This document shows, in pieces, positions 42,601 to 64,000 of a stretch of DNA of 64,000 nucleotides (its first letter is position 1; every line of letters starts with the position of its first letter). Origin of the DNA: Flavihumibacter fluminis (GTDB taxonomy: Bacteria > Bacteroidota > Bacteroidia > Chitinophagales > Chitinophagaceae); assembly GCF_021491375.1 (NCBI RefSeq), contig NZ_JAKEVY010000001.1, forward strand, positions 806,001 through 870,000. The letters run 5' to 3'. The notes under the pieces were generated by a model. That model ran no database searches. It was not told the origin of the DNA and saw only the letters and a list, made by a program, of their open reading frames with translations. The position numbers and the translations under genes were made by a program.

Positions 42601-43364
42601 CCAGCCAGGAATATCAGTCCCCGCACAAAACCATATGTTTCTGCAATACTGTTCGCAGCACTGTGTACAGCGATCAGTAATAATACAATGCCAATAATAT
42701 CCAGTACGATCGCCCACTCATTGGCCGAAGAATCCGCAGACACTTTACGTGGCTGCAGATAAAATAACAGCTTACCACTTAAACTCCGAACCGGGTAGGC
42801 TGTTTCTGTATCGGTTATGGCCACCGAAGATTCCGCACTTGGAAATCCAGCAAACTGGGACGAGAGGTTGCTGTTTTGCACAAAATACTCTTTCCTGACC
42901 TCAATCATCGCAATTAGTAATAATTGCTCCCTGGCCAGTGGAATCAGCTTTCGGATGCATTCATATTGCCCGTTCTGCAAACCTACCAGTTGAATACTAT
43001 CCTCACTGTAAATAATATCGGCTGCTGGTTCCGTTTGCTGATAACTCCAGAACTGCAGTTTCCAGTTATTGTATTGATCCGGACGATACAGAAATACCCC
43101 CAGGTTATTCCTGCTCAGTTTTTCCAGGTGATCCACATCATAAGTTCCTTCCGCCAGCACTTTTAACAAGGCAGTATCCCCAGACAATATTTCCACCTGC
43201 CGCTCCTGCACCTGGATCCTGTCTTCAATCGCTTTGCGCAGGTAAGGGGCCGATGAAGCTCCAACAAAATAATTATTGATGATAAATGCTATGGTGAACA
43301 ACCAGGCGGCCGCCAGCAGGAAATAGGCATTCTTTTTTAATATTCCGATGACAAACTGGATCAA
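39609..43364 (-). CDS. Large membrane sensor histidine kinase, NtrY-like
   Basis: A 1251-residue protein. A first helix at ~10-30 is followed by a periplasmic part, a cluster of about seven helices (~215-470), a second extracytoplasmic region, helices near 725-815, an extracytoplasmic sensor, then a last helix (~945-967). HAMP follows at ~968-1020. The H-box HEIKNPLTPMKL has His1042, then the N-box NLLQNAMEA, G1 DNGQGIP and G2 GTGLGLAMSKG. The H-box and HAMP pattern fit the NtrY/GHKL group. No response regulator gene is adjacent. Its ATG overlaps the mazG stop (ATGA), so the two are translationally coupled. Confidence 0.92.
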   Translation of the reverse strand: MIQFVIGILKKNAYFLLAAAWLFTIAFIINNYFVGASSAPYLRKAIEDRIQVQERQVEILSGDTALLKVLAEGTYDVDHLEKLSRNNLGVFLYRPDQYNNWKLQFWSYQQTEPAADIIYSEDSIQLVGLQNGQYECIRKLIPLAREQLLLIAMIEVRKEYFVQNSNLSSQFAGFPSAESSVAITDTETAYPVRSLSGKLLFYLQPRKVSADSSANEWAIVLDIIGIVLLLIAVHSAANSIAETYGFVRGLIFLAGTVIGLRLLTYMFSDTLAWSEFELFDPGIYSSSLLLPSLGDLLINSLLFCWILLFIYRKSVGMNLQAFQQHWLKWPLVAVGAFLLVSITFSFAIIIRSLIADAARISFNVTNFFSLDVYSFWGFVVLATLALSYFLASSVILRVLAPLLRTNAYYLYAFLAAFGLLLITFIQSGNIVELNLFVLVWLIGYTWLLRQPLLITKDHRWSVSVLLLWIFLYSGSISLIIIAENSRIELEQRKRTAEKLATQADPTSERLLSIALTYFDNDFLYANFNRFRLASSNQYLKDSLINKNFSAYLNKYDTRIYTFDSQERPLYNDAPVSYDTLDIIYRMEGKPTNVPDMRYFEKAFDKYAYISRKMVTDTSGTAIGYVFILSEPKKYKNDALVPELFRGRKDFLPDEYSPIYSYAIYNNRELIDYFNDYAFPTRLSDKQLPPNNFTFRKNEGYDELWYRDNNKVVIIAKLNNLWLESITLVAYLFSTFLLLLGIFQLISLLVRSRLRLSNLRKEMQLNLRTQVHGTIIFISLFSFLVIGAATIFFFINRYNRNKQDQLSRAIQIMSNEVENKIDSQTFFDYMLRLYDSGYNEYLEVLVREVSEIHGTDINIYDTQGELRLSSNPFIYDKGILSSRMNPEAYYRIHRQKLVQFTTTEQIGGISYQSIYSPVRDENGNPYAYLNMPSFDSQEELKREISNFLVTIINLNAFIFLIAGVIALFITNRITASFSLISEKMRAVNLGQHNDEIQWNRNDEIGELVKEYNKMVLKLEESAAALAKSEREGAWREMARQVAHEIKNPLTPMKLSIQYLQKAIQGNNGDVKQLTFNVANTLVEQIDHLSKIASEFSQFANISNAHNELFDLHEILQSLSSLYDSNDLVVFTWKPVDGPVWVFADKTQMNRLFTNLLQNAMEATENRELRLVEVKEEWGEDTIIISVHDNGQGIPAATQSRIFTPNFTTKTSGTGLGLAMSKGIVEQARGRIWFETSETDGTTFFVSLPSASS

Positions 43365-48590: not shown

Positions 48591-49430
48591 TCATACCAGC
48601 GCTTTGACAGGAACAAGTGCCGCTGCTCCCAATAACGCAATGTTCTCTGTTTTGGAATGAATCACTTTTACCTGTTTGAGCAGGGATGGATACATAAAGT
48701 CATCCATACTCAGATACATACTTTCTTCAAAGTATTTGTAGGCATTGGAAATCGAACCTCCAAGCAATACAGCCTGAGGAGCATATGCATACAAAACCAC
48801 CTTTAAAACATTGCCCAGGTGATGACCGTATTCCTGCCAAACCTGAAGGGCTTTGGGTTTCCCTTCCTGTGCGTCATAAAAAAGTTCTTCCGCAGTTGTA
48901 TCATGTATGTCAAAAAAACTGCTGCTGGAATAATATTCCAGATTTTTATCGAGATAAGGAAAATAGCCGATTTCTCCTGCCCCGCAATTCACTCCAAGAT
49001 ATAACTCCCGGTTAATTACAATAGCAGTTCCAAGTCCCGTCCCCACTGAAATTGCTACAAAGGAATCAAATGGCTGTGCAGCACCAAATTGGTGTTCCCC
49101 CAGAGCAAAACAATTCACATCATTATTTACAAACACCGGTTTATGAAACTGTTCTTCGAGTATTTTCTTCAACTCAACTTTCTTCCAGGAAGGAATATTC
49201 ACCACATCAAACACCACTCCATTGTCCACATCCACAATGGAAGGAACTCCGATCCCTATGCCTTCAACCTCTTCACTTACCAATGGTTCTATAACTGCTA
49301 TTATTTGCTCCAGCGTTGCATCCAGTGAATGTTTATTGGTTAGCTTATGACTGATCGATTGCAACACCTCACCTCCCTGAATTAATCCGGCCCTAATATT
49401 CGTCCCGCCTAAATCAACGCCTATGATCAT
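48591..49430 (-). CDS. ROK-family sugar kinase
   Basis: A 279-residue protein. ATP-binding start MIIGVDLGGTNIRAGLIQGG, catalytic Asp in VNNDVNCFALGEHQFG (~100), phosphate-2 region SVGTGLGTAIVINRELYLG, and GAGEIGY. The usual ROK zinc motif (GHxx...CxCGxxGC) is replaced by GYFPYLDKNLEYYSS, with no zinc-binding cysteines. No N-terminal helix-turn-helix, so it is a kinase rather than a NagC-type repressor. Probably phosphorylates the sugar released by the locus. Transcribed with the XylR-type gene after it and divergent from susC. Confidence 0.88.
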   Translation of the reverse strand: MIIGVDLGGTNIRAGLIQGGEVLQSISHKLTNKHSLDATLEQIIAVIEPLVSEEVEGIGIGVPSIVDVDNGVVFDVVNIPSWKKVELKKILEEQFHKPVFVNNDVNCFALGEHQFGAAQPFDSFVAISVGTGLGTAIVINRELYLGVNCGAGEIGYFPYLDKNLEYYSSSSFFDIHDTTAEELFYDAQEGKPKALQVWQEYGHHLGNVLKVVLYAYAPQAVLLGGSISNAYKYFEESMYLSMDDFMYPSLLKQVKVIHSKTENIALLGAAALVPVKALV

Positions 49431-49535: not shown

Positions 49536-49634
49536 TCAAATTGCGTAGCATAGATCGTATTTTGATGATTACGCATTTTGATGATTAATATTCGCTTCAT
49601 GTCCCAATGCAACTGAATAGCTAATCTAATTTTA
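49536..49634 (+). promoter_or_regulatory. Regulator site and -7 box upstream of susC (site 1)
   Basis: The core site begins TACGCATTTTGA at 49570, with a second half-site TTCGCT 21 bp on at 49591. A -7 box TAATTTTA (49627-49634) begins 57 bp after the site start. Upstream there is an inverted copy TCAAATTGCGTA (49536-49547) and a tandem duplication of a 16-bp unit, CGTATTTTGATGATTA (49556-49571) and CGCATTTTGATGATTA (49572-49587). No -33 TTTG precedes the -7 box, as expected for an activator-dependent promoter. Confidence 0.75.
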
Positions 49635-49671
49635 TAGAGCCTTTGTTTTAAACTGAATAACCAACTAGATT

Positions 49672-52600
49672 ATGAAATTAAACTTACTGCTAAAGAGGCT
49701 TTTTGCTTTCATAGCAGCGATTGCACTCCATCAACTTGCATTCGCGCAAACATCGGTTACCGGGAAGGTAACAGATCAAAGCACCGGTGCTCCTCTCTCC
49801 AATGTAAATGTGACAATTAAAGGAACCAGCAGGGGTACCACTACCAACGACAACGGTGTTTTTTCCATCAACCTGCAGCAGGGTGATGCAGTACTTGTTT
49901 TTTCAAGCACTGGTTTTGCTGAAACAGAAATTGACATCAACGGACGCAGCACTATCGATGTTACACTCTCAACTTCCAGCACCAAACTTTCTGAAGTGGT
50001 GGTGGTAGGTTATGGTACCCAATCGCGCCGGGATCTTACCGGAGCTGTTGCTTCTGTAAAAGGCGATGCCATTCAAAACCTGCCGGTCTCCAGTGCCTCA
50101 CAGGCGCTCCAGGGACGTGCAGCCGGTGTAAATGTGGTGCGCAGTGGCGGTAACCCCGGTAACCCCGGCAGTATTCGCATACGCGGTACAGGCACCATCA
50201 ACAACGCAGACCCGCTGATCATCATTGATGGTATTCCCGCAGGTGATCTGAACGCTGTTAATCCCAATGACATTGCCTCCATCGAAGTACTTAAGGACGC
50301 TTCGGCTTCCGCTATCTATGGTACACGTGCTGCTAATGGGGTGGTAATCGTTACAACCAAACGCGGTGGTTTCGAACAACCAATGCGAATGAATGTGAAC
50401 GCCTACACCGGTATGTCAAATGCTATTAAAACGCTTGACATGCTGGATGCAGCCACCCTGGTTGAATTGAAAAGAGAACGTTTTACCAATGACGGCCTCA
50501 CAATTAACCCCGTATGGAATGATCCCTCCAACTCTACTCAAAGAACCAACTGGCAAGATGAATTATTCAGAACAGGTACTGTAAACAACATAGATGTGGC
50601 GCTTAGTGGCGGTTCTGCCAAATCCTCCTATATGTTATCAGCAGGCATGTACGATGAAAAGGGAATCATTACCAATTCCTTTTTCAAACGTTACAGCATG
50701 CGCTTAAATTCAGATCATCGTATCGGAAAGCGCCTGAAAGTGGGACAAAGCATTCAGCTCACCCGCTCCAATGACAACAGCCTTAATACCTTGTCTGCAC
50801 AGGACGGTCTGATCTGGAGTGCCATCCGTTTCATGCCTTTTATTCCGGTTAAAAATGATGACGGATCCTGGGGTACCTCCAAAGCCTCCAATGAATTCGG
50901 CGATATTAACAACCCTATATTTACTGCCAATACAATTGATGCAGACAATATTAACACCCGACTCCTGGCGAATATCAATGCAGAATATGAAATCCTGAAA
51001 GGCCTCAAGTTCAAAGTGAACCTGGGTGTGGATGGAAACCATTATACAGGTCGTAATTTCAACATCATCATCAGTGATCAAACCCGCACGAGAAACAACA
51101 ACTCACTCGGAAGATCATTCAGTGAATCTTATTCTCTGTTGGGTGAATACTTCCTTTCCTACAGCAATATTTTCGCCGGCAAACACAAACTGGATGCCGT
51201 GGCAGGTTATACTTCACAAACCTTTGACGGAGATAATTTCTCAGCGGCCAAACGCGATTTCCTCAATGAAGATCCCAACCAGCGCTTTCTTGATGTAGGT
51301 CAAACCTTACAAGGTATCGGTGGTAATCGCTATTACGATGCCCTTCAATCAGTTTTCGGAAGGATTAACTACGACTACGATCAACGTTATCTTTTCACGG
51401 CTACTTTCCGTGCGGATGGTTCTTCCAAATTCGCAGACGGAAATAAATGGGGATATTTCCCGGCCTTCTCTGCAGGCTGGAGAATTTCCAATGAAAAATT
51501 CTTCAATGTTTCATTTATTGATGAATTGAAACTTACCGCAGGCTGGGGACAACTGGGCAACCAAAATGTAAACCGTTTGCAGTACCTCGCATTGATTGGA
51601 AATGGCGGTCGCTATTCCTTCAACAACAACACCACGGTAGGCAATACGCAAACCAGACTTCCCAACCCGAATATTTCCTGGGAAACAGCAGAAATGTCCA
51701 ACATTGGACTAAGTGCAGAGTTGTTCAATCGTAAACTGGCTGTGAACCTGAACTACTTTGATAAAAAGACACGCGATATGCTGCTGTCTCCTCCTACCAT
51801 CGGAACAGTGGGCACACTCAGTATTCCTGATCAGAACGTAGGCGTATTGAAGAACAGCGGTTTTGAAATGGATCTTTCCTATTCGAATCGCGCCGGAGAA
51901 TTTTCCTATCGGTTAGGTGCCAATGCCGCTTTCATCAAAAACAAAGTGATTGAATTGTATGATGGTAACTTCATCGGCTCCCGTACCTACGGTCGCCCTA
52001 ATGAAGAGATCTCCCGTACCTACGAAGGATTACCTATAGGTATCTTCTACGGATGGAGAACCGACGGACTTTACCAGACTACAGACGATATCAGCAAGGA
52101 TCCTAATATCGCAAATGATCCTCGCCGTACTGCAGGTTTAATTGAACCCGGAGATGTACGCTTCCTTGATATTAATGGTGACGGACTGATTGATGACCGA
52201 GATCGCGTTAACCTGGGCAGCCCACACCCGAAAATGGTATATGGTTTCAATGCTGATTTCAATTACAAAGGTTTTGACCTCGGCTTGTTCTTCCTTGGTA
52301 ATGCAGGTGTGAAAATCTTTAATGCAGACCGCATGCAGGGCCTTGATCCTACTTATTCATTCAACATGTATGAAGAAGTTAAAGATCGCTGGACAGGCCC
52401 GGGTACCAGCAACAGCATTCCCCGTATGACCACGCGCAGGAACAATCGAAATTATCGCACATCCGATATGTTTATCGAGAAAGGAGATTTCCTTCGACTG
52501 AAGAATCTCAGCATCGGATATACGCTGAACGACAAACTGACGAACCGCCTTGGTATTGGCAAAACCAGGTTCTATATCACTGGTCAAAACGTATTCACCG

Positions 52601-52725
52601 TTACGGGTTATTCAGGCCTTGATCCTGAATTGGGATATACAGATGGTAACAGGCAGATCAATGTGGATTACGCACAGTATCCGCAATCCCGGACCTGGAT
52701 TTTTGGACTCAATGTTACCTTTTAA
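49672..52725 (+). CDS. SusC/RagA TonB-dependent outer-membrane transporter
   Basis: A 1017-residue protein without an STN domain. Signal peptide 1-25 (LAFAQ), a carboxypeptidase D-like domain (SVTGKVTDQSTGAPLSNVNV), a plug with VVVVGYGTQSRRDLTGAVAS and SIEVLKDASASAIYGTRAAN, and a barrel ending in ...RTWIFGLNVTF. It imports oligosaccharides with the SusD lid encoded 18 bases later. Regulated from site 1. Confidence 0.96.
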   Translation: MKLNLLLKRLFAFIAAIALHQLAFAQTSVTGKVTDQSTGAPLSNVNVTIKGTSRGTTTNDNGVFSINLQQGDAVLVFSSTGFAETEIDINGRSTIDVTLSTSSTKLSEVVVVGYGTQSRRDLTGAVASVKGDAIQNLPVSSASQALQGRAAGVNVVRSGGNPGNPGSIRIRGTGTINNADPLIIIDGIPAGDLNAVNPNDIASIEVLKDASASAIYGTRAANGVVIVTTKRGGFEQPMRMNVNAYTGMSNAIKTLDMLDAATLVELKRERFTNDGLTINPVWNDPSNSTQRTNWQDELFRTGTVNNIDVALSGGSAKSSYMLSAGMYDEKGIITNSFFKRYSMRLNSDHRIGKRLKVGQSIQLTRSNDNSLNTLSAQDGLIWSAIRFMPFIPVKNDDGSWGTSKASNEFGDINNPIFTANTIDADNINTRLLANINAEYEILKGLKFKVNLGVDGNHYTGRNFNIIISDQTRTRNNNSLGRSFSESYSLLGEYFLSYSNIFAGKHKLDAVAGYTSQTFDGDNFSAAKRDFLNEDPNQRFLDVGQTLQGIGGNRYYDALQSVFGRINYDYDQRYLFTATFRADGSSKFADGNKWGYFPAFSAGWRISNEKFFNVSFIDELKLTAGWGQLGNQNVNRLQYLALIGNGGRYSFNNNTTVGNTQTRLPNPNISWETAEMSNIGLSAELFNRKLAVNLNYFDKKTRDMLLSPPTIGTVGTLSIPDQNVGVLKNSGFEMDLSYSNRAGEFSYRLGANAAFIKNKVIELYDGNFIGSRTYGRPNEEISRTYEGLPIGIFYGWRTDGLYQTTDDISKDPNIANDPRRTAGLIEPGDVRFLDINGDGLIDDRDRVNLGSPHPKMVYGFNADFNYKGFDLGLFFLGNAGVKIFNADRMQGLDPTYSFNMYEEVKDRWTGPGTSNSIPRMTTRRNNRNYRTSDMFIEKGDFLRLKNLSIGYTLNDKLTNRLGIGKTRFYITGQNVFTVTGYSGLDPELGYTDGNRQINVDYAQYPQSRTWIFGLNVTF

Positions 52726-52743
52726 CTGAAAAAAGAATTGACT

Positions 52744-54192
52744 ATGAAACATACGATAGTATACAAAGGATTTCTGTTGCTGCTGGCCGTTGGCGCAGTG
52801 AGCTGCAATAAAGACCTGCTGGATTCGCCTCCTTATGGGCAGTCCACCTCCGCGGATTTCTGGAGAAATGCCGATGACGCCGTCTCTGCATCCAATGCAC
52901 TGTATTCTTTCCTGGGCGACGAATATACGTTTGCTCATACGGAACAAACCTGGGACATCTGTTCAGACGACCAATGGAGAGCCGGTGACCACCCGGAAGA
53001 CCAGGCCATTGAAGATTTCACGGTTGAACCTTCCAACCCCCAATTGAACGACAGTTGGGCCAGGAAATATGAAATTGTATCTCGAGCCAATGCTGTCCTG
53101 ATCAATGTACCAGAAATCAATATGGATAATGCCCTGAAAAATCGCATCCTGGGCGAAGCGCATTTTATTCGCGGACTCATCTACTGGCAGTTCTACAAGA
53201 TCTACGGCGAAGTGCCTTTGATTCTGGAAGCCAATGTTCGGGAAAACAATTACAATGTTCCCAAAGCAAGCATGGCTGAAATGGAAGCGCAGATTGAATC
53301 CGATTTTCTTGCTGCCGCAGACCTACTGCTTACAACCAATGACAATGCGAATCTGGGTCGCGCTACCAAAGGTGCAGCCTGGGGTTACCTTGCCAAATTC
53401 TATATGTATAAAGAGAATTTCCCCAAGGTGATTGAATTCGGCAACAAAGTAATTACCGGCCCGTATGCGCTGGCTCCAAGTTTTGGCGACAACTTCACAC
53501 CCGCTACCAAAAACAACCCGGAAGTTCTTTTCTCTATTCAGTGTACAGAAGGCTGGACAGAAAACGTAGCTTCAATTTATTACGGTCCTCGTCCCTGGGG
53601 CGGATGGGGCTTCCAGGAACCAATTGATGATCTGGCAGATGAATTTGAACCAGGCGATGAGCGCATGGGCTACACCATGGCAAAAGTGGGTGACATGATT
53701 GATGCTGGTGCCTCCAATGGCGGATTACAACCTGTTCCGGCCGGACTCACCAACACCGGTTATTTCTTCCGCAAATATGTAAGCTGGAGACCGGATGGCG
53801 GCCTGGACAACAATATGAACATTGTAATGCTCCGCGCTTCTGATATTTACCTGCTGGTTGCTGAAGCAAAGATTCGTTCCGGACAAAACGGAGACAACGA
53901 GATCAATGCCGTGCGCCGTCGCAATAATATACCAGATGTAAGCAATGCAACCATGCAGGATCTTATTCATGAAAGAAGAGTGGAACTGGCTGGTGAAAAC
54001 GAACGTCATCTCGACCTGATGCGTTGGGATCGCGCCAATATCATCGATTTGCGCGCCCATTATGCAATCAACCGTGGTCAGTGGAAACCTGCCCGCACGT
54101 TCACTCGCCCTAAAAATTATAAATTCCCGATTCCCCAGCGCCAGATTGATCTGAGCAATGGAGTACTGATACAGAACCCAGACTACCAATAA
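52744..54192 (+). CDS. SusD/RagB-family outer-membrane lipoprotein
   Basis: The start at ATG 52744 (MKHTIVYKGFLLLL) was chosen over an in-frame TTG six bases before. 482 residues; lipobox VSCNK. Family features: LLDSPPYGQSTSADFWRNAD, LGEAHFIRGLIYWQFYKIYG, and the C-terminal HERRVELAGENERHLDLMRW followed by a PIPQRQIDLSNGVLIQNPDY end. Partner lid of the preceding SusC. Confidence 0.95.
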   Translation: MKHTIVYKGFLLLLAVGAVSCNKDLLDSPPYGQSTSADFWRNADDAVSASNALYSFLGDEYTFAHTEQTWDICSDDQWRAGDHPEDQAIEDFTVEPSNPQLNDSWARKYEIVSRANAVLINVPEINMDNALKNRILGEAHFIRGLIYWQFYKIYGEVPLILEANVRENNYNVPKASMAEMEAQIESDFLAAADLLLTTNDNANLGRATKGAAWGYLAKFYMYKENFPKVIEFGNKVITGPYALAPSFGDNFTPATKNNPEVLFSIQCTEGWTENVASIYYGPRPWGGWGFQEPIDDLADEFEPGDERMGYTMAKVGDMIDAGASNGGLQPVPAGLTNTGYFFRKYVSWRPDGGLDNNMNIVMLRASDIYLLVAEAKIRSGQNGDNEINAVRRRNNIPDVSNATMQDLIHERRVELAGENERHLDLMRWDRANIIDLRAHYAINRGQWKPARTFTRPKNYKFPIPQRQIDLSNGVLIQNPDYQ

Positions 54193-54218
54193 TTGGTTAC
54201 GGCTTTTTGAGCAATCCC

Positions 54219-54272
54219 AAACCGGCTCCTATACTTTTGCAGTTTTGTATAGGGCCGGTTTTTTTATTTTTA
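54219..54272 (+). terminator. Terminator of the first susCD pair
   Basis: AAACCGGC/CCTATAC pairs with GTATAGG/GCCGGTTT, 15 bp with one bulged T, a 12-nt loop, then TTTTTATTTTT. Very strong intrinsic terminator 27 bases past susD. Confidence 0.93.
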
Positions 54273-54294
54273 CATCTCCGCAGTTATATATGTT

Positions 54295-54732
54295 ATGAAT
54301 CAGAACGATTTAAAGGCTTCGCATAAAAATTTTAGTAGCGCAATTGCAGTACTGGTAATTGCCTGTAGCCTGAATGCCTGTACCACTGATTATGCTCCCA
54401 AACTGGTAGGCACCTGGGAGATTGATTCGGTATTTGATTACCATAACGGATTTACTTTTACAAATACGAACCCAAGTCCCAGGGAGACACATACCTATAA
54501 TCCGGATGGCACCATGTTACGAGAAGGAATGGGAGAAAAAAAACAATACTATTATGAATTGAATGATAAACAGCTCATCATTCGAGATTTGCCCAATGCC
54601 AGTGTAGGAAATGAAATGGAAATTATTAATCTGGATAACACCCAACTGGTACTCAAAAAAAATAAACGCCCGCTCTTCGAAGGCAAAAAGGAAGTCCGTT
54701 ATGAACTTCGATATTTCAGCCGAAAGCAATAA
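54295..54732 (+). CDS. Small lipocalin-like lipoprotein
   Basis: A 145-residue protein with lipobox SLNAC and the lipocalin-like pattern KLVGTWEIDSVFDYHNG ... HTYNPDGTMLREGMGEKKQYYYELNDKQLI split over beta-strands. Such small proteins (lipocalin-like / DUF4488-type) are common near Bacteroidota PULs and have no known ligand. It sits after the susD terminator and so has its own promoter. Confidence 0.7.
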   Translation: MNQNDLKASHKNFSSAIAVLVIACSLNACTTDYAPKLVGTWEIDSVFDYHNGFTFTNTNPSPRETHTYNPDGTMLREGMGEKKQYYYELNDKQLIIRDLPNASVGNEMEIINLDNTQLVLKKNKRPLFEGKKEVRYELRYFSRKQ

Positions 54733-54734
54733 TC

Positions 54735-54793
54735 ACTTCTGACGTCTCACTTCTCACGTCTCACTTCTCACGTCTCACTTCTCACGTCTCACT
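54735..54793. repeat. TCACGTC/TCACTTC heptamer array overlapping a gene end
   Basis: Alternating heptamers TCACTTC and TCACGTC, about eight units, the reverse complement of the 37685-37775 array. The distal part encodes the last residues and stop codon of the minus-strand FG-GAP gene (to 54775). Confidence 0.88.
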
Positions 54794-57700
54794 TCCAAAC
54801 AAATCACTGCTCCATTACTGATTCCTGCCAACACCAGATTAGTTCTCCCCGGCCGATCTAATTTAATCAGTGACCTTCCCTCTCCGGTTACACGAAAATT
54901 ATCCCGCTTCTTGGTGAATTGACCATCGCCCATTCCATGCAGAGAGAGTCCATTTAAGGCATCCACTGGCCCATTGATCACTTCATAACTATAGTCGTTT
55001 CCGGTCAACAACAGATCCTGATTCCCATCCCCGTCCCAATCATTCACAAGGATAGCATGAACAGGAGCAAACTGTGCCTCCATAGGCAAAGGCTGAAATT
55101 TCCAGGCACTGTCACCACCAGTTAACAACACACCTGAACGCCATTCATTTAATTGCCTGAATTCGGCAGCATTCAAATCAACCTGGGGAAAGAGGTCCTG
55201 CATTCTTGCCTTTGCATAATCGTTATACAGCGGAAATTTCTTTCGTAAAAAAGGCAATTGCATCATCAGATCGTCTCTTGGATGAATAGGATATGCCTCT
55301 CCGTTAGTAGTATAACTTATCACGCCATGGCGGGTACCTGTTTTACTAAAATCATACCAGTAAACTCCCAGCGACTGATAATCAGACCTGGCATATCGAC
55401 TGTTCAACCCATGGTTACCCAATACCAGGTCTGGTTGCCCATCCTTGTTACAATCTGCCACTTGCACCGTATTCCACCAGCCTACGGTTTTAGCTAATCC
55501 TAATTTTTCCGTGGTGTTTTCAAAACGGCCCTGCCGGTTCATAAATACTGTCACCGGTATCCATTCTCCAACTACCACCAGGTCCATCCAGCCATCCTTG
55601 TTCAGATCAACCCAAACAGCTCCGTTCACCATACCAATTGCTTCTAATCCGGGTGCTTTTTCAGCAGCTACCTGAATAAAACGTCCATTCCGGTTTTCCA
55701 ATAATTGAGAAGTTCCTCCTTCCGGATAATGCTGTGGCCGGATTCTACCGCCAACGAACAGATCCATATCTCCATCCCGATCAAAATCCATTGCAACTGC
55801 AACAGATCCACTGGCTGGTATTGCAGGCAATAGATCCTTCGATAGCGTAAATCCTCCCCTGCCATTGTTGATATACAACCGATCCTGGTAATGAACCGAT
55901 CCCTCAGGAAACTCATTACCACCACTTACTACGTAGAGGTCCTGGTCTCCATCTCCATCAGCATCCAAAAACGCAGCTCCCATATCCTCCGGCATTTTTT
56001 TCCCTTCATTAAGTAGCTGACTACGAAAAGCACCATTCGGTTGTTGCAGGTAGATTAAACCCGATTGATTATAGGCGCCACCTATGAAAAAATCATCCCG
56101 TTGGTCTCCATTCAGATCAGCTACAGCCATTGGCGGACCACCGGTTGAAAATTTATGTGGTATGAGTGGCTGAATATTAAAATCAGTATAAGGCGTTTCA
56201 TGGTGGAAAAAATTGATACCCAACTGTTCTTTTTCCAGCTCAAAAAATCCATTTTGTAACATCGTATACGGAAAATAATAAGCCTCCCGGCTATCCTTAT
56301 ACGAAATAACCAGTTCCCTGTTTAAAGGAGGTGATTTGAGTGTCTGCTGCCGACCATCGGGCCAGTTGATAACAAGTGAATCCAGCTGGTTGATGGCACC
56401 CAAACCAATCAGCATCCTATTATCAACGGAAGACTGGTAACCTCTAACTACCTGTTGCTCTGAAAACCACATTTCAGTTCCTGCATACAGACGACAACTG
56501 GCTCCTATCCCATCCCGGTTTCCTGGTTTCCCTTCCAGCCGTATCCGTAAAAAACTATGTTTTGTTTTTTCAGCAGCAGTATTCCTGTACACAGAAGCCG
56601 GTTTTCCCGTATTCACTACAACCAGGTCCAGGTCGCCATCATTATCCAAATCAGCATAGGCAGCACCGGTAGAATACGCATCTGTACTGAATCCCCAATA
56701 CTTTGACTGATCTGAAAATCGATAATCACCCTCATTACGAAACATGAAATTGTGCAGATAGGCACCCTCCAGTTTTTGCAGTACTGCAAACTGGTCCCTG
56801 GTAAGCGGTGCTTTCGGATCAGTTCGCGACAACCCCTGCGCCTGGTAGGTGATAAAATCCCGGTTCGTAATATCTCTTGGATAGCCATTGCTAATAAAAA
56901 GATCACGACGACCATCAAGGTCAAAATCAGCAAGGAGCGGGCTCCAGCTCCAGTCGGTAGCGGAGATACCTGCCAGTTGGCCAATTTCACTGAATTCGGG
57001 TACATCTCCTTTTATCAATCCTGTATTCAGGTGTAATGAATTCCGCATGAACTGAGGAGCATAACCCACCTGCAACTCGGAACGATAGCGGTCGTGATTG
57101 GTAAATCCCAGCATCAGTTTCTGCCGGTAATTATCCGGAGGCAACATATCCACTTCTACCAGATCAGGGAAACCATCGTTGTTGATATCACCTGCATCAT
57201 TACCCATGGCAGAATAACTGGTATGCTTAAACGCAGAAGTAGCCTGGTCGGTAAATGTTCCATCCCGGTTGTTGATATACAACAAGTCGTTGGAGAGATA
57301 ATCATTGGAAACGAAAATATCCGGCCAGCCATCCCGGTTTAAATCCGAAACAGCAACACCAAGGCCATATCCTTCCTTTAAAATTCCGGCTTCCCTCGAT
57401 ACATCTCTGAATTTTCCATTTCCCTCGTTCTTGTAAAGTCGGTCAGTATTGATCATTTCCCCATTCACCCGCTTGGGACGAATAATATTCGGCCCCATTT
57501 CATCTGTGATATTGGTCAGCAGGTAACAATCCAGGTCATCATCCAGGTCATAGTCAAAAAAAACAGCTTGTACAGTATGGCCGGTATCTGCTAATCCATA
57601 GGCTGCCGCCTGATCTGTAAAGCGTCCTTTTCCGTCGTTTACATAAAGCGCATTTGCCCGCTTGTCCGCGGCATGCGGACCAGCAAAACAGAGATAAATA

Positions 57701-58080
57701 TCCGGGTAACCATCCTGGTTGATATCTACAATGGATACACCTGTAGCCCACTTCCCACGGGTATCAATACCCGAAGATTCCGTTTTGTCTTCAAATTGAA
57801 AATTACCCTTATTTACATAGAGTTTAGAAGCACCCATATTGGAAGAAAAGAAGAGATCCGGCAGAGAGTCCTGGTTAAAATCTGCTACCCCCACTCCCGC
57901 TCCATTATAGAAATACTCAAAACTCAGGATATTCAGTTGCTCATCTTCCCGGATTTCATTGGTGAAATCAATACCTGTTTGCTGCAACGACAGTTCCTCG
58001 AACAGAAAATTTTCAGGCGCTTCCGGTTTGCAGGACCAGCAATAAAAAAGAATAATACACAACCAGCTAATTCGTATCAT
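54775..58080 (-). CDS. Large FG-GAP/VCBS and ASPIC/UnbV repeat lipoprotein
   Basis: The start at ATG 58080 (MIRISWLCIILFYCWSCKPE) gives a lipoprotein signal with Cys near 17. About 1101 residues. FG-GAP/VCBS Ca-binding blades recur throughout (ADFNQDSLPDLFFSSNMG, VDINQDGYPDIYLC, SDLNRDGWPDIFVSNDYL, ADLDNDGDLDLVVVNTG, LDADGDGDQDLYVVSGG). An ASPIC/UnbV domain lies at ~500-590 (GIGASCRLYAG, VRGYQSSVDNRMLIGLG, INWPDG). Such proteins are abundant in marine and soil Bacteroidota PUL regions, likely surface-exposed sugar or protein binders; function unproven. Divergent from the glycosidase gene. Confidence 0.9.
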   Translation of the reverse strand: MIRISWLCIILFYCWSCKPEAPENFLFEELSLQQTGIDFTNEIREDEQLNILSFEYFYNGAGVGVADFNQDSLPDLFFSSNMGASKLYVNKGNFQFEDKTESSGIDTRGKWATGVSIVDINQDGYPDIYLCFAGPHAADKRANALYVNDGKGRFTDQAAAYGLADTGHTVQAVFFDYDLDDDLDCYLLTNITDEMGPNIIRPKRVNGEMINTDRLYKNEGNGKFRDVSREAGILKEGYGLGVAVSDLNRDGWPDIFVSNDYLSNDLLYINNRDGTFTDQATSAFKHTSYSAMGNDAGDINNDGFPDLVEVDMLPPDNYRQKLMLGFTNHDRYRSELQVGYAPQFMRNSLHLNTGLIKGDVPEFSEIGQLAGISATDWSWSPLLADFDLDGRRDLFISNGYPRDITNRDFITYQAQGLSRTDPKAPLTRDQFAVLQKLEGAYLHNFMFRNEGDYRFSDQSKYWGFSTDAYSTGAAYADLDNDGDLDLVVVNTGKPASVYRNTAAEKTKHSFLRIRLEGKPGNRDGIGASCRLYAGTEMWFSEQQVVRGYQSSVDNRMLIGLGAINQLDSLVINWPDGRQQTLKSPPLNRELVISYKDSREAYYFPYTMLQNGFFELEKEQLGINFFHHETPYTDFNIQPLIPHKFSTGGPPMAVADLNGDQRDDFFIGGAYNQSGLIYLQQPNGAFRSQLLNEGKKMPEDMGAAFLDADGDGDQDLYVVSGGNEFPEGSVHYQDRLYINNGRGGFTLSKDLLPAIPASGSVAVAMDFDRDGDMDLFVGGRIRPQHYPEGGTSQLLENRNGRFIQVAAEKAPGLEAIGMVNGAVWVDLNKDGWMDLVVVGEWIPVTVFMNRQGRFENTTEKLGLAKTVGWWNTVQVADCNKDGQPDLVLGNHGLNSRYARSDYQSLGVYWYDFSKTGTRHGVISYTTNGEAYPIHPRDDLMMQLPFLRKKFPLYNDYAKARMQDLFPQVDLNAAEFRQLNEWRSGVLLTGGDSAWKFQPLPMEAQFAPVHAILVNDWDGDGNQDLLLTGNDYSYEVINGPVDALNGLSLHGMGDGQFTKKRDNFRVTGEGRSLIKLDRPGRTNLVLAGISNGAVICLEVRREK

Positions 58081-58140
58081 AAAAATCAGATATACACTCA
58101 AGCTACAAGTTACAATTCCTGGCCGGCTAAGAGGGAGTAC

Positions 58141-58205
58141 TACGTATTTTGAAGACTATTATTCGCAAAAAGTGAAATAGTTGACTAATAGCAAAGTTAA
58201 CTTTA
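58141..58205 (+). promoter_or_regulatory. Regulator site and -7 box upstream of the glycosidase gene (site 2)
   Basis: TACGTATTTTGAAG (58141-58154) with second half-site TTCGCA at 58162, 21 bp on, and -7 box TAACTTTA at 58198, 57 bp after the site start. The gene ATG follows at 58227. It lies in the divergent gap with the FG-GAP gene and may affect both. Confidence 0.72.
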
Positions 58206-58226
58206 GCTTTACTCAAAACTGGTAGC

Positions 58227-59867
58227 ATGGATTCGAGAAGAAAATTTTTACGCAACTCCTTTTTACTGGCTGGGTCTGCTGCATTACCGGCACCATCCCT
58301 GTTAGCAGGTGAAGGCCCCTCCTCTGCTCCCGATCAGGATATTGAACTGCAAAACGATTTCAAAAACACATACGTAAAAAACGTATTTGTAACAGAGAAT
58401 GAATTTCGCAATGCGCAGCCCAACCTGGTACCGGCTCCTTCTTTCGCGCAAGCCAAAGAAATGTTACCCCTCCCCAACTGGAAAGGTAACCAGGCTGCCA
58501 TCGACATGTACTGGAAAGCCTGGGAAATTGCGTTTAAAAATATCAAGGATCCTGCTCCGAAATCCGGCTTTATTGCTTCCTACATAGATACTGCCTACAA
58601 TGGCAATATTTTCATGTGGGATTCAACCTTTATCACCATGTTTGCGCGATATGGCACACGGGCCTATCCTTTTCAGCAAACGTTGGATAATTTCTATGGA
58701 AAACAACATCCGGATGGATTTATTTGTCGCGAAATATGGGGGCTAACCGGCAAAGACTGTTTCCATCGCTACGATCCTACCAGCACAGGCCCCAATCTGA
58801 TCCCCTGGAGTGAGTTGGAATATTACCGCCAATTCGGAGATATTCAGCGACTGCATAAAATCTTCCCGGTATTGTGCGCTTATTATCAATGGCTCCGGCT
58901 TAACCGCACCTGGAAAGATGGATCCTACTGGTCCAGTGGATGGGGTACCGGTATGGATAATCAACCCCGCGTGCATAAAGAATACAACCCGATCTTTTCA
59001 CACGGCCATATGACCTGGCTGGATACCTGCCTGCAACAATTGTACATTGGAAAAATCCTGGTTGAATTTGGCTTTTATGTAGAACGCTGGCAGGAAATTG
59101 AAGACATTGAATCAGAAACCAAATTCCTGAAGAAATGGATCCGCGAAAATCTCTGGGATTCCAAAACTTCGTTTTTCTATGACCGTTATGCCGACGGTTC
59201 AATTGGCAATTTCAAATCAGTCGGTGCCTACTGGGCACTCTGGGCGGATATCCTGGAACCGGATGAATTAAAAAAATTTACTGCACATTTAACGGATACG
59301 CAAACTTTTGCACGCAAACATCCAATTCCATCCATGCCGGCCAACCATGAAAAATACCAGCCGGATGGGCGCTACTGGCAGGGAGGTGTATGGGCTCCGA
59401 CTAATTATATGGTAATTGCCGGACTGAGACAAAACAACCTTCACACCCTGGCATTTGATCTCGCTAAAAAACACCACCAGCAGGTATTACAGGTGTTCAA
59501 AGACACAGGCACTTTCTGGGAATATTATGCTCCTGAAACAACTAGTCCCGGACTACTGGCAAGACCTGATTTTATTGGCTGGACCGGCCTCGTTCCCATC
59601 TCCATTTTATTTGAAGGAATTTTTGGAATTCGATCCAGCATTCAAACCAATACCATCAATTGGGATGTACGACTGACAGAAGAACATGGAATTGATCGGT
59701 ATCCGATTGGAAAGGAAGGCATCTTATCATTACAGGCTGCTGCAAGAACCAGTGAAAAACAAAAGCCTTCCCTTACCATTCAATCAAACCTTCCACTCAA
59801 ATTAAAACTTAGTTGGGCAGGTGGTTCGGATACAATTGATATTAAACCCGGAATGAATAAGATTTAA
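58227..59867 (+). CDS. Tat-exported (alpha/alpha)6-barrel glycoside hydrolase, MGH1/GH63-like
   Basis: A 546-residue protein. The twin-arginine signal DSRRKFLRNSFLLAGSAAL is followed by a cleavage site near LLAG. The rest is a six-hairpin barrel: NGNIFMWDSTFITMFARYG (~125-143), SSGWGTGMDNQPR, YWQGGVWAPTNYMVIAGL (~386-403), GTFWEYYAPETTSPG and FIGWTGLVPISIL. These fit the GH63-C-terminal/trehalase/MGH1 family, where the acid and base sit in the WD and FWE-type motifs. Substrate unknown; an alpha-glucoside or alpha-mannoside is possible. Controlled by site 2 and followed by a strong terminator. Confidence 0.8.
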   Translation: MDSRRKFLRNSFLLAGSAALPAPSLLAGEGPSSAPDQDIELQNDFKNTYVKNVFVTENEFRNAQPNLVPAPSFAQAKEMLPLPNWKGNQAAIDMYWKAWEIAFKNIKDPAPKSGFIASYIDTAYNGNIFMWDSTFITMFARYGTRAYPFQQTLDNFYGKQHPDGFICREIWGLTGKDCFHRYDPTSTGPNLIPWSELEYYRQFGDIQRLHKIFPVLCAYYQWLRLNRTWKDGSYWSSGWGTGMDNQPRVHKEYNPIFSHGHMTWLDTCLQQLYIGKILVEFGFYVERWQEIEDIESETKFLKKWIRENLWDSKTSFFYDRYADGSIGNFKSVGAYWALWADILEPDELKKFTAHLTDTQTFARKHPIPSMPANHEKYQPDGRYWQGGVWAPTNYMVIAGLRQNNLHTLAFDLAKKHHQQVLQVFKDTGTFWEYYAPETTSPGLLARPDFIGWTGLVPISILFEGIFGIRSSIQTNTINWDVRLTEEHGIDRYPIGKEGILSLQAAARTSEKQKPSLTIQSNLPLKLKLSWAGGSDTIDIKPGMNKI

Positions 59868-59895
59868 TTAGTTTACTAAAAACTAACAATAAATT

Positions 59896-59931
59896 AAACT
59901 GTGTATCATGTAGAAGATACACAGTTTTTTT
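59896..59931 (+). terminator. Terminator after the glycosidase gene
   Basis: AAACTGTGTATC pairs perfectly with GATACACAGTTT (12 bp) around an 8-nt loop, followed by a T-run. Confidence 0.92.
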
Positions 59932-59988
59932 ATGCGTTTATTGATTGCCGTTAGCTAGTTGATATCCGTCAAATTAAAATTTCATTTC

Positions 59989-60053
59989 TACGCATTTTGA
60001 AGTTTATTATACGCATATGCGTAGGATGCAGTACAACCAGGCCCATATCTTTA
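59989..60053 (+). promoter_or_regulatory. Regulator site and -7 box upstream of the second susC (site 3)
   Basis: TACGCATTTTGAAG (59989-60002), second half-site TACGCA at 60010, 21 bp on. The second half-site is part of a perfect 14-bp palindrome TACGCATATGCGTA (60010-60023). The -7 box TATCTTTA begins at 60046, 57 bp after the site start. The susC ATG is at 60153, leaving a ~95-base 5' untranslated leader. Confidence 0.75.
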
Positions 60054-60152: not shown

Positions 60153-63100
60153 ATGAAAAAAATCACAGGTATTTTAGTATTCCTGTTCGGGCTTGCTATT
60201 TCCGCAAGCGCCCAACAAAAAATATCCGGAACGGTCAGTTCCGGTAAAGACGGTACGCCCATCGCAGGTGCCTCTGTGATGATTAAAGGCAGTTCGACAG
60301 GAACCGTAACAGAAAATGATGGCACTTACACCATCAATATCCCTGCAGGCACGAAAACACTTGTATTCTCTGCCGTTGGCATGAAAACAATCGAACGTTC
60401 GGTTGGAAATTCAATCACGGTTGATGTGGTATTGGAGCCAACAGGATCCAGTTTCGATGAAGTGGTTGTGATTGGTTATGCCAATGCCCGCAAACAGGAT
60501 TTGCAGGGCGCTGTTTCTACAGTAAAAGTGACTGATAATTTTAAAGGACGGCCGGCATCACTGGGTAATATCATACAGGGACAAATGCCCGGTGTGAATG
60601 TTACTCAAAGTGGCGATCCTACTTCCTCTGGCTCCATCAGTATCAGAGGTAAAGGCAACAAAAATGGTGATGCCGTACTGATCGTTGTAGATGGTGTTCC
60701 AGGCGCTCCTTATAACCCTGCCGATATTGAAACCATCACGGTTTTAAAAGACGCATCCTCTGCTGCCATTTACGGAGCCTTCGCCGGATCAGGTGGTGTG
60801 GTACTCATTACCACCAAACAGGCAAAAGCCGGAAAAATGACTATCGAAGCCAATGTTTGGAATGGTACGCAGCAGGCCTGGCGCACGCCCAAAGTGCTCA
60901 CTGCAGAACAGTTCAACATGGTTTGGAAAGACGCTTCCACTGCTGCCGGCAGAACTGTTCCGAAAACCTACGACCCCATCACCTTCCCTTACGGAAATGT
61001 TACCCGTACCGACTGGGTGGATGAGATTTTCCGTACAGGCCGCATGCAACACTATGACCTGACCATCCGTGGTGGTACCAATACGATCAAAGCGCTTGCT
61101 TCGGTTAGTTATGATGACGTACAGGGCACCCTGATTAATACCTACAATAAAAAACTGACCACCCGTTTGAATGTTGATTTCAACCTGGCAAAATGGATTG
61201 AAATCGGTCAGCATGTATTATATGATTTCAACAAGGGGCAAAGTGCTATCGGTGATGGGCACACGGGAACAATCTTCGGTGCAATGGCTTATCCCCGTTT
61301 CAGCACTGTTCGCGAATTCGGTCCGGATGGCGAACTGCTCTACGGCGGTACCGTTCCCCGTTGGGCGCTTGCTGAAGGTTTCAGTGTAGAAGCCGACTTA
61401 CGTAACCCTGTTGCCATGCTGGAAAAAGTGAAGCATAACAATCCAGCCAATAAGATTTTCTCCAAAACCTCCTTACGTTTGAAACCCTTACCTGGCTTAC
61501 AGTTCCGCTCTGAATTTTCTGCTGACGTAACCAGCTTCCGCAATGAATCTTTCCAGATGCGCTTCCTGGAACCTGGTCGTACGATCAACCAGAATTACCG
61601 TTCAATCTCTAACACCCTCGCGTCGGGATGGAACTGGGATAATATCCTCTCTTACAACAAGACCTTCAACAACGTGCACGATGTAGCCGCCATGGGAGGT
61701 TTCCTGATGAACAAACGCACATCCCGCTATAACTGGGCGGAAGTTCGGGGTTACGCGTTCGAAGATCCTTACCAGACTATCTTCAACAACGGTACCGACT
61801 GGTCAATCCGTCCGAGTGAAGATATTTGGGAAGAAACCTTCGTTTCTGTTCTGGGAAGAGTGTCCTACTCTTTTGACAACCGCTATTTTGTTTCAGGTAG
61901 CGTTCGCCGGGATGCCTCCTCCAAATTGAGCCCAACCAATAACTCGGATGTTTTCCCGGCGGTTTCTGCTTCCTGGAAAATTTCTTCCGAAAACTTCATG
62001 CAGCGCTTTCAACAAATCAACCTGTTGAAGATTCGTGCCAGCTGGGGACAGGTTGGAAATATCGCATCCGTGCGCCGATTCATTTATGCACCTCCCTACC
62101 AGGTTACTTCCTGGCCGCTTTTCCTCGGACCTAACGGTGAGGGACAGGCTTTTGGAATTTTCCAGCCCACTATTCCCAACCCTAACCTGAAATGGGAAAG
62201 AACTGAGCAGATCAATATTGGTCTTGACCTCAGCCTGTTTGACAATTCCCTAACTGCCACTGTCGATTATTTCTCTAAGAAGACCAAGGATCTGATAGAA
62301 TCCATGCCCACTCCTTCTGTTGCAGGGGTAGCATCTCCTCCTGAATTCAACATTGGACAGGTGGAAAACAAAGGATGGGAATTCACACTGAACTATAACC
62401 GAAAAATCGGATCCGTTGATTTTAACATCGGCGGCAACCTGGGTACCTTCGATAACAAGGTGATCAGCATAGGTCAAACCGCGTTCATCGCACATGGCAA
62501 CGGTGTAAACTCCATGAACCCGCTTCGCTCAACAGCAGGTATGCCCTGGCATTCTTTCTTCCTGATCGATGCTGTAGGTATCTTCCGCAACCAGAAAGAT
62601 ATTGATGATTATACCTGGACCGATCCTGTTAGTGGTACTACCAAAAAAATCCAGCCCAATGCACGTCCCGGTGATCTGCAGTTCCGAGATGTTAACAATG
62701 ACGGAACCATCAACGACGGAGACCGCGTTTATATGGGCGCGTATGATATGCCGGATTTCAGCTATGGTTTTAACCTGGGAGCCAACTGGAAAGGATTCAG
62801 TCTCTCTCTGTTCATGCAGGGTATTTCCGGAGTGAATGTATTCAACGGTGTGAAAGCCATGACCTATACCGGTTCCAAAGGATGGAATATGAGCACCGAT
62901 GTATTGAATTCCTATAACTACAATCCAAACTCAGATATTCCCAACCTGGCCGTAGTTGAAGATCCGAACGGAAACTTCAGCAAAGTATCTGACTATTTCC
63001 TGGATAAAGCAGATTACCTGCGGTTGAAAAACCTGCACCTCGCTTATACACTGCCAAGCAGTTTGATGCAGCAGGTATTAGCATTAAAAGACGCACGGGT

Positions 63101-63242
63101 ACGTGTATACGCAAACGCAGAAAACCTGATCACCATCACCAAGTACAAAGGATTTGATCCGGAAGTAGGCAACCTGGGTATTGATGGCGGAAGATTTCCT
63201 GTGTCCCGGATGTTTAGTGTAGGTATGAATGTTTCATTTTAA
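60153..63242 (+). CDS. SusC/RagA TonB-dependent outer-membrane transporter
   Basis: A 1029-residue protein: signal peptide (1-20, ASAQQ), carboxypeptidase D-like domain (KISGTVSSGKDGTPIAGASV), plug (EVVVIGYANARKQDLQGAV, ITVLKDASSAAIYGAFAG) and barrel to the C-terminal Phe (SVGMNVSF). No STN domain. Paired with the partial susD that follows after 11 bases. Distinct in sequence from the SusC at 49672, so a different ligand or fragment size is likely. Confidence 0.96.
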   Translation: MKKITGILVFLFGLAISASAQQKISGTVSSGKDGTPIAGASVMIKGSSTGTVTENDGTYTINIPAGTKTLVFSAVGMKTIERSVGNSITVDVVLEPTGSSFDEVVVIGYANARKQDLQGAVSTVKVTDNFKGRPASLGNIIQGQMPGVNVTQSGDPTSSGSISIRGKGNKNGDAVLIVVDGVPGAPYNPADIETITVLKDASSAAIYGAFAGSGGVVLITTKQAKAGKMTIEANVWNGTQQAWRTPKVLTAEQFNMVWKDASTAAGRTVPKTYDPITFPYGNVTRTDWVDEIFRTGRMQHYDLTIRGGTNTIKALASVSYDDVQGTLINTYNKKLTTRLNVDFNLAKWIEIGQHVLYDFNKGQSAIGDGHTGTIFGAMAYPRFSTVREFGPDGELLYGGTVPRWALAEGFSVEADLRNPVAMLEKVKHNNPANKIFSKTSLRLKPLPGLQFRSEFSADVTSFRNESFQMRFLEPGRTINQNYRSISNTLASGWNWDNILSYNKTFNNVHDVAAMGGFLMNKRTSRYNWAEVRGYAFEDPYQTIFNNGTDWSIRPSEDIWEETFVSVLGRVSYSFDNRYFVSGSVRRDASSKLSPTNNSDVFPAVSASWKISSENFMQRFQQINLLKIRASWGQVGNIASVRRFIYAPPYQVTSWPLFLGPNGEGQAFGIFQPTIPNPNLKWERTEQINIGLDLSLFDNSLTATVDYFSKKTKDLIESMPTPSVAGVASPPEFNIGQVENKGWEFTLNYNRKIGSVDFNIGGNLGTFDNKVISIGQTAFIAHGNGVNSMNPLRSTAGMPWHSFFLIDAVGIFRNQKDIDDYTWTDPVSGTTKKIQPNARPGDLQFRDVNNDGTINDGDRVYMGAYDMPDFSYGFNLGANWKGFSLSLFMQGISGVNVFNGVKAMTYTGSKGWNMSTDVLNSYNYNPNSDIPNLAVVEDPNGNFSKVSDYFLDKADYLRLKNLHLAYTLPSSLMQQVLALKDARVRVYANAENLITITKYKGFDPEVGNLGIDGGRFPVSRMFSVGMNVSF

Positions 63243-63253
63243 AAAGTTCCATC

Positions 63254-64000
63254 ATGAAGACGAAACTAATAGCAATCGCTTTAATTATAGCTGCAGGCAG
63301 TTTGAGCTCCTGCAAAAAATTCCTCGAATTACAGCCTTATGGGCAGCCATCTGAACTTAATAACCTGACGGATGCCCAGGCAATGCAGGCAGTATATTCC
63401 CTGTTTTACTGGCAATACCGGGAAGGCACACTGGGCCGTGGTTTCATGTGGTTTGAAAACTGCAGCGACAACTTCGTTACCGGTCGTACACAGGCCGAAG
63501 CACAGAACATTAAAAACTTTCTGGATGAAGGTTCCAGCAGCAGGGATGTGCGTGATAACTGGCCTCAAATGTACCAGACGATCAACTATTCCAACAACCT
63601 GATCCGTTCGGCACCCAATGCCACCAAACTTTCCAACCGGGTGCGCAACAGTGTATTGGCACATGCTTATTTCATGCGGGGGTTCTCCTATCTCTGGCTC
63701 GCGCCCTGGTATGGCGATAACGGCCCGAATGGCGGTATTCCCATCGTTACAGAAAACACACCAATCGATGAAATCGATGTGCCTCGTCCGACTTCTGTCC
63801 TGGAGAATTATGATATGATCATCGAAGACCTGCAAAAAGCAGCTGACCTGCTTCCCTGGTTTGATGAATTGCCGCAGGCAGAATGGGGACTAATGCACAA
63901 AACCGCTGCATGGTCGCTCATGGCAAGAGCTGCCCTATACGCTGCACAATACGATCCTTCTTATTACGAGAAAGTAATTGAGTATACTGATCGTGTGATC
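63254..64000 (+). CDS. SusD/RagB-family lipoprotein, partial at window edge
   Basis: The frame opens with ATG at 63254 and is open to the last base, 249 codons. Lipobox LSSCKK, then FLELQPYGQPSELNNLTDAQ and AHAYFMRGFSYLWLAPWYGD, matching the N-terminal half of SusD proteins. Partner of the preceding SusC; the C-terminal half is outside the window. Confidence 0.92.
   Translation, partial: MKTKLIAIALIIAAGSLSSCKKFLELQPYGQPSELNNLTDAQAMQAVYSLFYWQYREGTLGRGFMWFENCSDNFVTGRTQAEAQNIKNFLDEGSSSRDVRDNWPQMYQTINYSNNLIRSAPNATKLSNRVRNSVLAHAYFMRGFSYLWLAPWYGDNGPNGGIPIVTENTPIDEIDVPRPTSVLENYDMIIEDLQKAADLLPWFDELPQAEWGLMHKTAAWSLMARAALYAAQYDPSYYEKVIEYTDRVI

Follow-up and report, generated by a model that had tools for sequence, protein, structure and literature searches.

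The closest described counterpart of the system considered here is Escherichia coli XylR, an AraC-family activator with a LacI/GalR-like sensor. The system itself, a XylR-type regulator with four putative operator sites, is located in a 64,000-nucleotide stretch of the Flavihumibacter fluminis genome (the window; G000:C11:806001-870000, in a genome of 4,710,176 bases). According to an excerpt of PMC7567609, E. coli XylR activates xylA and xylF via two sites each. The regulator encoded in the window has the same domain order, and a direct repeat at 21 bp is likewise present in the E. coli xylA promoter DNA. However, the half-site sequence in the window is different, the putative targets are importers and a glycosidase instead of a xylose isomerase and an ABC transporter, and the promoters are of the Bacteroidota type, with a -7 box but without a -33 element.

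A second related group is formed by the hybrid two-component systems (HTCS) of Bacteroides polysaccharide loci. In the excerpted text of PMC3878776, these regulators have an AraC-type helix-turn-helix (HTH), use tandem direct-repeat sites averaging 21 bp and belong to susCD loci, and in all these respects they resemble the system in the window. However, as membrane sensors HTCS include kinase and receiver domains, whereas the window protein is a 388-aa LacI-AraC hybrid in which no kinase or receiver domain was found by Pfam. The Bacteroides XylR (BT0791), assigned to the NrtR family in the same excerpt, shares with it only the name.

We consider it probable (about 0.84) that the four sites are the operators of the XylR-type protein and constitute a local self-regulated regulon, with the activator binding immediately upstream of the core promoter. 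Judging from the sequence, a single sugar-sensing regulator very probably activates four transcription units via a shared site at a fixed distance from each promoter: the operon in which it is encoded, those of two outer-membrane sugar importers, and a glycosidase gene. The kind of switch is already known, whereas the operator sequence, the member of the regulator family, and the strict +57 spacing are new. No paper on this regulator was found in the open-access literature, where absence is weak evidence.

Operator Sites and Promoter Geometry

In all four sites (A to D, Table 1), the second half-site starts 21 bp and a -7 box 57 bp after the first base of the operator, which spans from 0 to about +34. 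The strict box TAnnTT[TA][AG] occurs with a frequency of 0.0008 per position across the 40-kb region, as against 4/4 at +57. Operator D lies back to back with operator A and points toward the ROK kinase gene. Since it is located upstream of the ROK-regulator operon, the regulator's own operon is part of the operator set. The extra half-site located 16 bp upstream of operator A has a counterpart at the same distance, among nine loci, solely in G004, and is probably a short tandem duplication.

The original prediction had placed operators A, B, and C correctly, and the +21 second half-site and the +57 TAnnTTTA box given for each of them were also right; however, operator D on the minus strand was overlooked. 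The pattern proposed there also agreed with the three sites, except that two bases (AT, AC, or TT) between [AT]G and TAATAT/TATTAT had been omitted; because of this missing spacer, the pattern typed literally gave zero matches.

The whole genome was searched with the 26-bp pattern TACGYAWTTTGAWGN7TWCGC. Four exact matches were found, all of them in this locus, while no matches were detected with one or two mismatches and ten with three. This count of four partly reflects how the pattern was built: its seventh base was widened to W after operator D had been seen, and sites A to C alone fit the narrower wording. The backwards control pattern gave 12 matches at up to three mismatches and none at up to two. 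Thus, the random genomic occurrence that would count against a regulon was not found in the F. fluminis genome. The ten three-mismatch sites, one of them at 45255 (-) in the window, were at the level of the control, and none had a -7 box at +57 on inspection; a wider regulon in this genome was therefore rejected.

Conservation of the Operator in Related Loci

A search for the regulator in 119 genomes, including that of F. fluminis, at E 1e-20 gave matches in 11 of them. Nine carried orthologs (76-100% identity), while G022 and G068 had only paralogs of 32-34%. The named carriers include F. cheonanensis, F. petaseus, and F. solisilvae; a regulator with 75% identity was present in Terrimonas pollutisoli. 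The resulting comparison set comprised ten loci, with regulators 75-100% identical, and 32 promoters. The gene order XylR-ROK / susC-susD-p145 / FG-GAP protein / glycoside hydrolase (GH) was kept, with susCD2 additionally present in G000, G008, G014, and G002. The locus of G066 was rearranged, and its fetched piece had no ROK gene.

The operator was found in all 32 compared promoters: susC1 (10/10), ROK (9/9, the loci having the ROK gene there), GH (9/9, as the Terrimonas piece stops short of the GH gene), and susC2 (4/4, the loci having susC2). Relatives that keep the locus thus keep the operator, which is the opposite of the lack of conservation that the original prediction had named as evidence against itself. 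A strict box at exactly +57 was present in 30 of the 32 promoters, the exceptions being susC1 of G066 (TATCTTGA) and GH of G009 (TAAATAAA). Two sites with 14/19 matches, upstream of susC1 in G012 and GH in G066, entered the list only through their box; among the 30 sites chosen on the operator alone, the strict box at +57 was found in 28. Ten other matches of at least 15/19 were detected in the nine Flavihumibacter-type loci, none with a box at +57.

Sigma-ABfr-type Bacteroidota promoters are described, in an excerpt of PMC7366714, as having a -7 box TAnnTTTG and a -33 TTTG. In comparison with these elements, the promoters studied carry a box of the form TAnnTT[TA][AG] at the frequency given above, and TTTG at +28 to +37 was found in 0/32 sites, including those of the window, for three of which the original prediction had noted the lack of a -33 TTTG. 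TTTG at +27 was present in five of the 32 sites, none of them in the F. fluminis genome; there it lies inside the second half-site, 30 bp before the box. The information content of the alignment columns was high at 0-13, moderate at 16-20, and high at 21-29, with columns 1, 12, and 22 varying; it did not exceed 0.58 bits at 30-56 and rose again to a high level at 57-64, except for 59 and 60.

Several further observations were made in these loci. Three of the ten other matches, in G000, G004, and G008, represent a single conserved operator-like match (15/19) on the minus strand at the beginning of susC1 (49742 in the window), followed by a box at +56; it probably reflects coding conservation. 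The glycosidase gene of G002 (L073) is split into three frames, and its operator is intact. The pair susC2-susD2 (60153-64000) with its own operator was present in 4/9 loci and was missing from the piece fetched for G004, the nearest relative; it is a gain/loss module.

Co-occurrence of the Operator and the Regulator

Exact operators were found in 5/9 genomes with an orthologous regulator and in 0/110 other genomes. The congener G013 had no regulator match at E 1e-20. It retains a GH ortholog of 77% on a 36-kb piece that has no ROK gene and neither susCD1 nor the two genes that follow it, and the GH gene follows the same gene that flanks the regulator in G012. In the alignment with G012, the -7 box TATCTTAG and the leader of GH were kept, while the operator was absent. 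We read this arrangement as a deletion.

Outside the locus, four matches at two mismatches were found in the carrier genomes. One of them, on contig C18 of F. petaseus (G009), consists of an operator and a box TATCTTAG at +57 located 102 bp upstream of the start of an alpha-L-fucosidase gene (Alpha_L_fucos), and is the only one of the four with a box. The other three (in G002, G014, and G008) had scores of -1.2 to 10.8, were boxless, and lay in stop-free stretches of 354-570 codons. Matches with one or two mismatches were also listed for relatives lacking an orthologous regulator (68), and the 22 with loci were examined. None of these 22 had both an operator score >16 and a box at +57, and 20 of them sit in a stop-free stretch of at least 184 codons. 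The operator of L030 scored 22.2 and had no box; L035 had the box-like TAATTTAA and an operator score of 2.1. At the locus of the 32% paralog (L026, G068), an operator-like match of 16.9 had no good box.

The sequence comparisons support the original prediction of a local XylR-type regulon comprising both susCD operons and the glycosidase gene with a putative twin-arginine translocation (Tat) signal. However, that regulon was incomplete, as the site of the ROK-XylR operon and the remote fucosidase site in one relative were not included.

Operators Near Distant Regulators

More distant regulators were searched for in 394 genomes of the family and 395 of the phylum at E 1e-80, with the best few candidates per genome scored. 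Matches were obtained in at least 13 family and at least six phylum genomes. The distant set consisted of 11 new loci and Siphonobacter (12 in total), with regulators of 38-64% identity and DNA-binding domains 29-59% identical to that of the window regulator. A 30-column matrix built from 21 sites was used for scoring, and the control consisted of 30 sequences obtained by Markov resampling from five of these loci. The joint operator-plus-box score exceeded 20 in 7/12 loci (Siphonobacter, G247, G281, G200, G431, G294, and G778), compared with at most 16.0 in the resampled sequences. The box distance was 57 in G247, G431, and G294; the box of G778 was poor.

Genes beside the distant regulators encode GH20, ROK, and major facilitator superfamily (MFS) transporters (G625, G684), GH20 and a PIG-L deacetylase (G281), GH92 (G247), GH92 and GH125 (G665), a GH2 enzyme (G200), and fucosidases (G333, G411, G294). 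This neighborhood points to N-glycan-like material; the hint comes from gene neighborhood alone, since G625, G684, G665, and G333 show no operator. In Siphonobacter (L082:3787-4523), an operator with a box at +58 faces the gene of an extracytoplasmic function (ECF) sigma factor, followed by a susC-like gene, an arrangement which would place an ECF sigma factor under a XylR-type regulator.

A broader and more tentative reading is that a LacI-AraC clade in Bacteroidota follows one rule, with two half-sites 21 bp apart, starting 57-58 bp before the -7 box and usually replacing the -33 element, and that genes join by gaining a 65-bp cassette. Such gain could account for the F. petaseus fucosidase gene, for susCD2 as found in four genomes, and for the ECF sigma gene in Siphonobacter, and the clade may serve the uptake of N-glycan-like material, as the GH20, GH92, GH125, GH2, fucosidase, and ROK families suggest. 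We hold this reading less likely because TTTG is present at +32 in G294 and four of the 12 distant loci have no site.

Proposed Mechanism

In the proposed mechanism, a regulator dimer would bind two direct half-sites 21 bp apart, approximately TRCGCAWTTTGANG followed by TRCGCATTT. It would thus sit directly upstream of a promoter that lacks a -33 TTTG and whose only element is a -7 box, TAnnTTTR, fixed at +57. The end of the bound dimer would be located approximately at the expected -33 position, where it could make up for the missing contact. AraC and XylR replace the missing contact in class II activation, and the layout is that of class II activation by AraC-type proteins. It is the position of the sites that suggests activation rather than repression. 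The sugar freed from the imported and cleaved glycan would bind the LacI-like domain, and the sugar-bound regulator would then turn on susCD1, susCD2, the Tat glycosidase gene, and the ROK-XylR operon. The ROK kinase may phosphorylate the inducing sugar, both using it and damping the signal.

To our knowledge, the working of Bacteroidota activators with the unusual primary sigma factor is poorly described. A short operator at an exact distance from a lone -7 box in four natural promoters offers, together with the natural absence and gain in relatives, a ready-made system in which activation independent of a -33 element can be tested. In addition, the operator is searchable for regulators of an unknown sugar and can link scattered glycosidase genes to importers.

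Alternative Explanations

The sites are assigned to the XylR-type protein because they are linked to its gene, because the two co-occur and were lost jointly, and because the protein family offers a precedent. Several results weigh against it. The loss in G013 is a single event that removed the regulator and the operators together, and it is consistent with the assignment without being independent. The 3' part of the second half-site is weaker than that of the first. Among the distant loci, the box lies at +58 in Siphonobacter, G281, and G200, no operator was found in G333, G625, G684, and G665 (4/12), and the operator of G411, with a box at +57, is degraded. The operator-only scores of G431 (15.1) and G294 (12.5) are below the resampled maximum of 16.0, and these loci pass only with the box. 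Finally, TTTG is present at +32 in G294, i.e., at the expected -33 position, and at +28 in G247, so that the absence of the -33 element is not general in distant loci. A further adverse point is the presence of a sensor histidine kinase gene near the locus in 6/10 loci (F. fluminis, G004, G008, G014, G002, and G012). It would favor a rival explanation in which another factor binds the sites, be it part of a two-component system, an ECF sigma factor, or an AraC protein encoded elsewhere, with the linkage of the XylR-type gene being incidental. The spacing is not in itself diagnostic of XylR, since the hybrid two-component regulators of B. thetaiotaomicron also use direct repeats averaging 21 bp (PMC3878776, excerpt). 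However, the kinase has no receiver or DNA-binding domain in Pfam; it was not found in the fetched pieces of G009, G066, G007, and Terrimonas, all operator-bearing, and it is kept in the operator-free G013. Hence, the kinase does not track the operator, whereas the operator tracks the XylR-type gene across genera, in the rearranged G066 locus, and in more distant relatives, and exact sites are absent from 110/110 relatives without the ortholog. These observations make another factor very unlikely.

The XylR-type protein might instead bind the sites and mainly repress, releasing them in the presence of sugar in the manner of LacI proteins; it has a LacI-like sensor domain, and there is a site at its own operon, as is common for repressor genes. 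Such repression appears unlikely, given that the -7 box always lies downstream of the site and is never covered by it, the box distance is fixed, the DNA-binding domain is of the AraC type and not of the LacI type, and the lack of TTTG at +28 to +37 fits the need for an activator. Residual, functionless homology of duplicated promoters could be suspected from the two susCD pairs in the locus, but it is hardly credible: positions 30-56 are hardly conserved while the operator and the box are kept, the ROK site precedes an unrelated gene on the opposite strand, and the fucosidase site is on another contig. The XylR-type protein acting as an activator at its own four sites is the reading that we prefer.

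Regulator and Neighboring Genes

The regulator contains the Pfam domains Peripla_BP_3 (109-274) and HTH_18 (308-382), and its best PDB sequence match was E. coli XylR (4fe4/4fe7, residues 2-382, E 8e-45). These domains identify it as a predicted XylR-type (LacI-AraC hybrid) protein; the direct half-sites, which adjoin the promoter at a spacing of 21 bp, agree with the XylR-type layout, and the regulator is predicted to bind there. Its gene begins 52 bp after the ROK gene (Table 1).

Table 1. Features of the putative XylR-type regulon in the window (positions of the whole stretch).
Feature	Position	Strand	Description
Operator A	49570..49595	+	Upstream of susC1; TACGCATTTTGATGATTAATATTCGC; half-sites +0 and +21; exact genome match
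-7 box of susC1 promoter	49627..49634	+	TAATTTTA; +57 from operator A
Operator B	58141..58166	+	Upstream of Tat glycosidase gene; TACGTATTTTGAAGACTATTATTCGC; second half-site +21; exact genome match
-7 box of glycosidase promoter	58198..58205	+	TAACTTTA; +57 from operator B
Operator C	59989..60014	+	Upstream of susC2; TACGCATTTTGAAGTTTATTATACGC; second half-site +21; exact genome match
-7 box of susC2 promoter	60046..60053	+	TATCTTTA; +57 from operator C
Operator D	49547 down to 49522	-	Upstream of ROK/XylR operon; TACGCAATTTGATGTGATAGATACGC; TACGC second half at +21
-7 box of ROK/XylR promoter	49490 down to 49483	-	TAGTTTTG; +57 from operator D
Extra half-site	49554..49567	+	16 bp upstream of operator A
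XylR-type regulator, 388 aa	47372..48538	-	LacI-like sugar-binding domain and AraC-type double HTH (Pfam)
ROK-family sugar kinase	48591..49430	-	First gene of regulator operon (Pfam)
susC1, TonB-dependent outer-membrane importer	49672..52725	+	Pfam
susD1	52738..54192	+	Pfam
145-aa protein	54295..54732	+	No Pfam family; conserved 3' of susD1
FG-GAP/UnbV_ASPIC protein	54775..58101	-	Conserved in ten loci
Glycoside hydrolase	58227..59867	+	Tat-like SRRKFL start; putative MGH1-like, GH63-like (alpha/alpha)6 barrel
susC2	60153..63242	+	Pfam
susD2	63254..64000	+	Runs past window end
Sensor histidine kinase, large	39609..43364		Near locus; no receiver or DNA-binding domain (Pfam)

The regulator may have a XylR-like working mode, but it should not be called a xylose regulator. 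Among the 14 scanned proteins of 39609-64000, no Pfam family of xylose isomerase, xylulokinase, or xylose transport was found, and a GFO/IDH/MocA protein scored 43.5 bits against a xylose-dehydrogenase model, far under the 350-bit cut-off. Xylose as the inducer is unsupported by anything in the scanned locus, and we claim no inducer.

No operator facing the FG-GAP/UnbV_ASPIC gene was found in the scan of the loci. The start of the glycosidase resembles the Tat consensus. Weak sequence and fold matches suggest that the enzyme is GH63-like. Its model had a mean pLDDT of 65.7, and the fold matches were spread over GH63, trehalase, rhamnosidase, glucosidase, and sialidase entries; given this modest model and the spread over several families, we claim no substrate. 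In L015, an alkaline-phosphatase-like reading frame was read from the letters 3' of susD2, and in G665 an alkaline phosphatase gene adjoins the GH relative.

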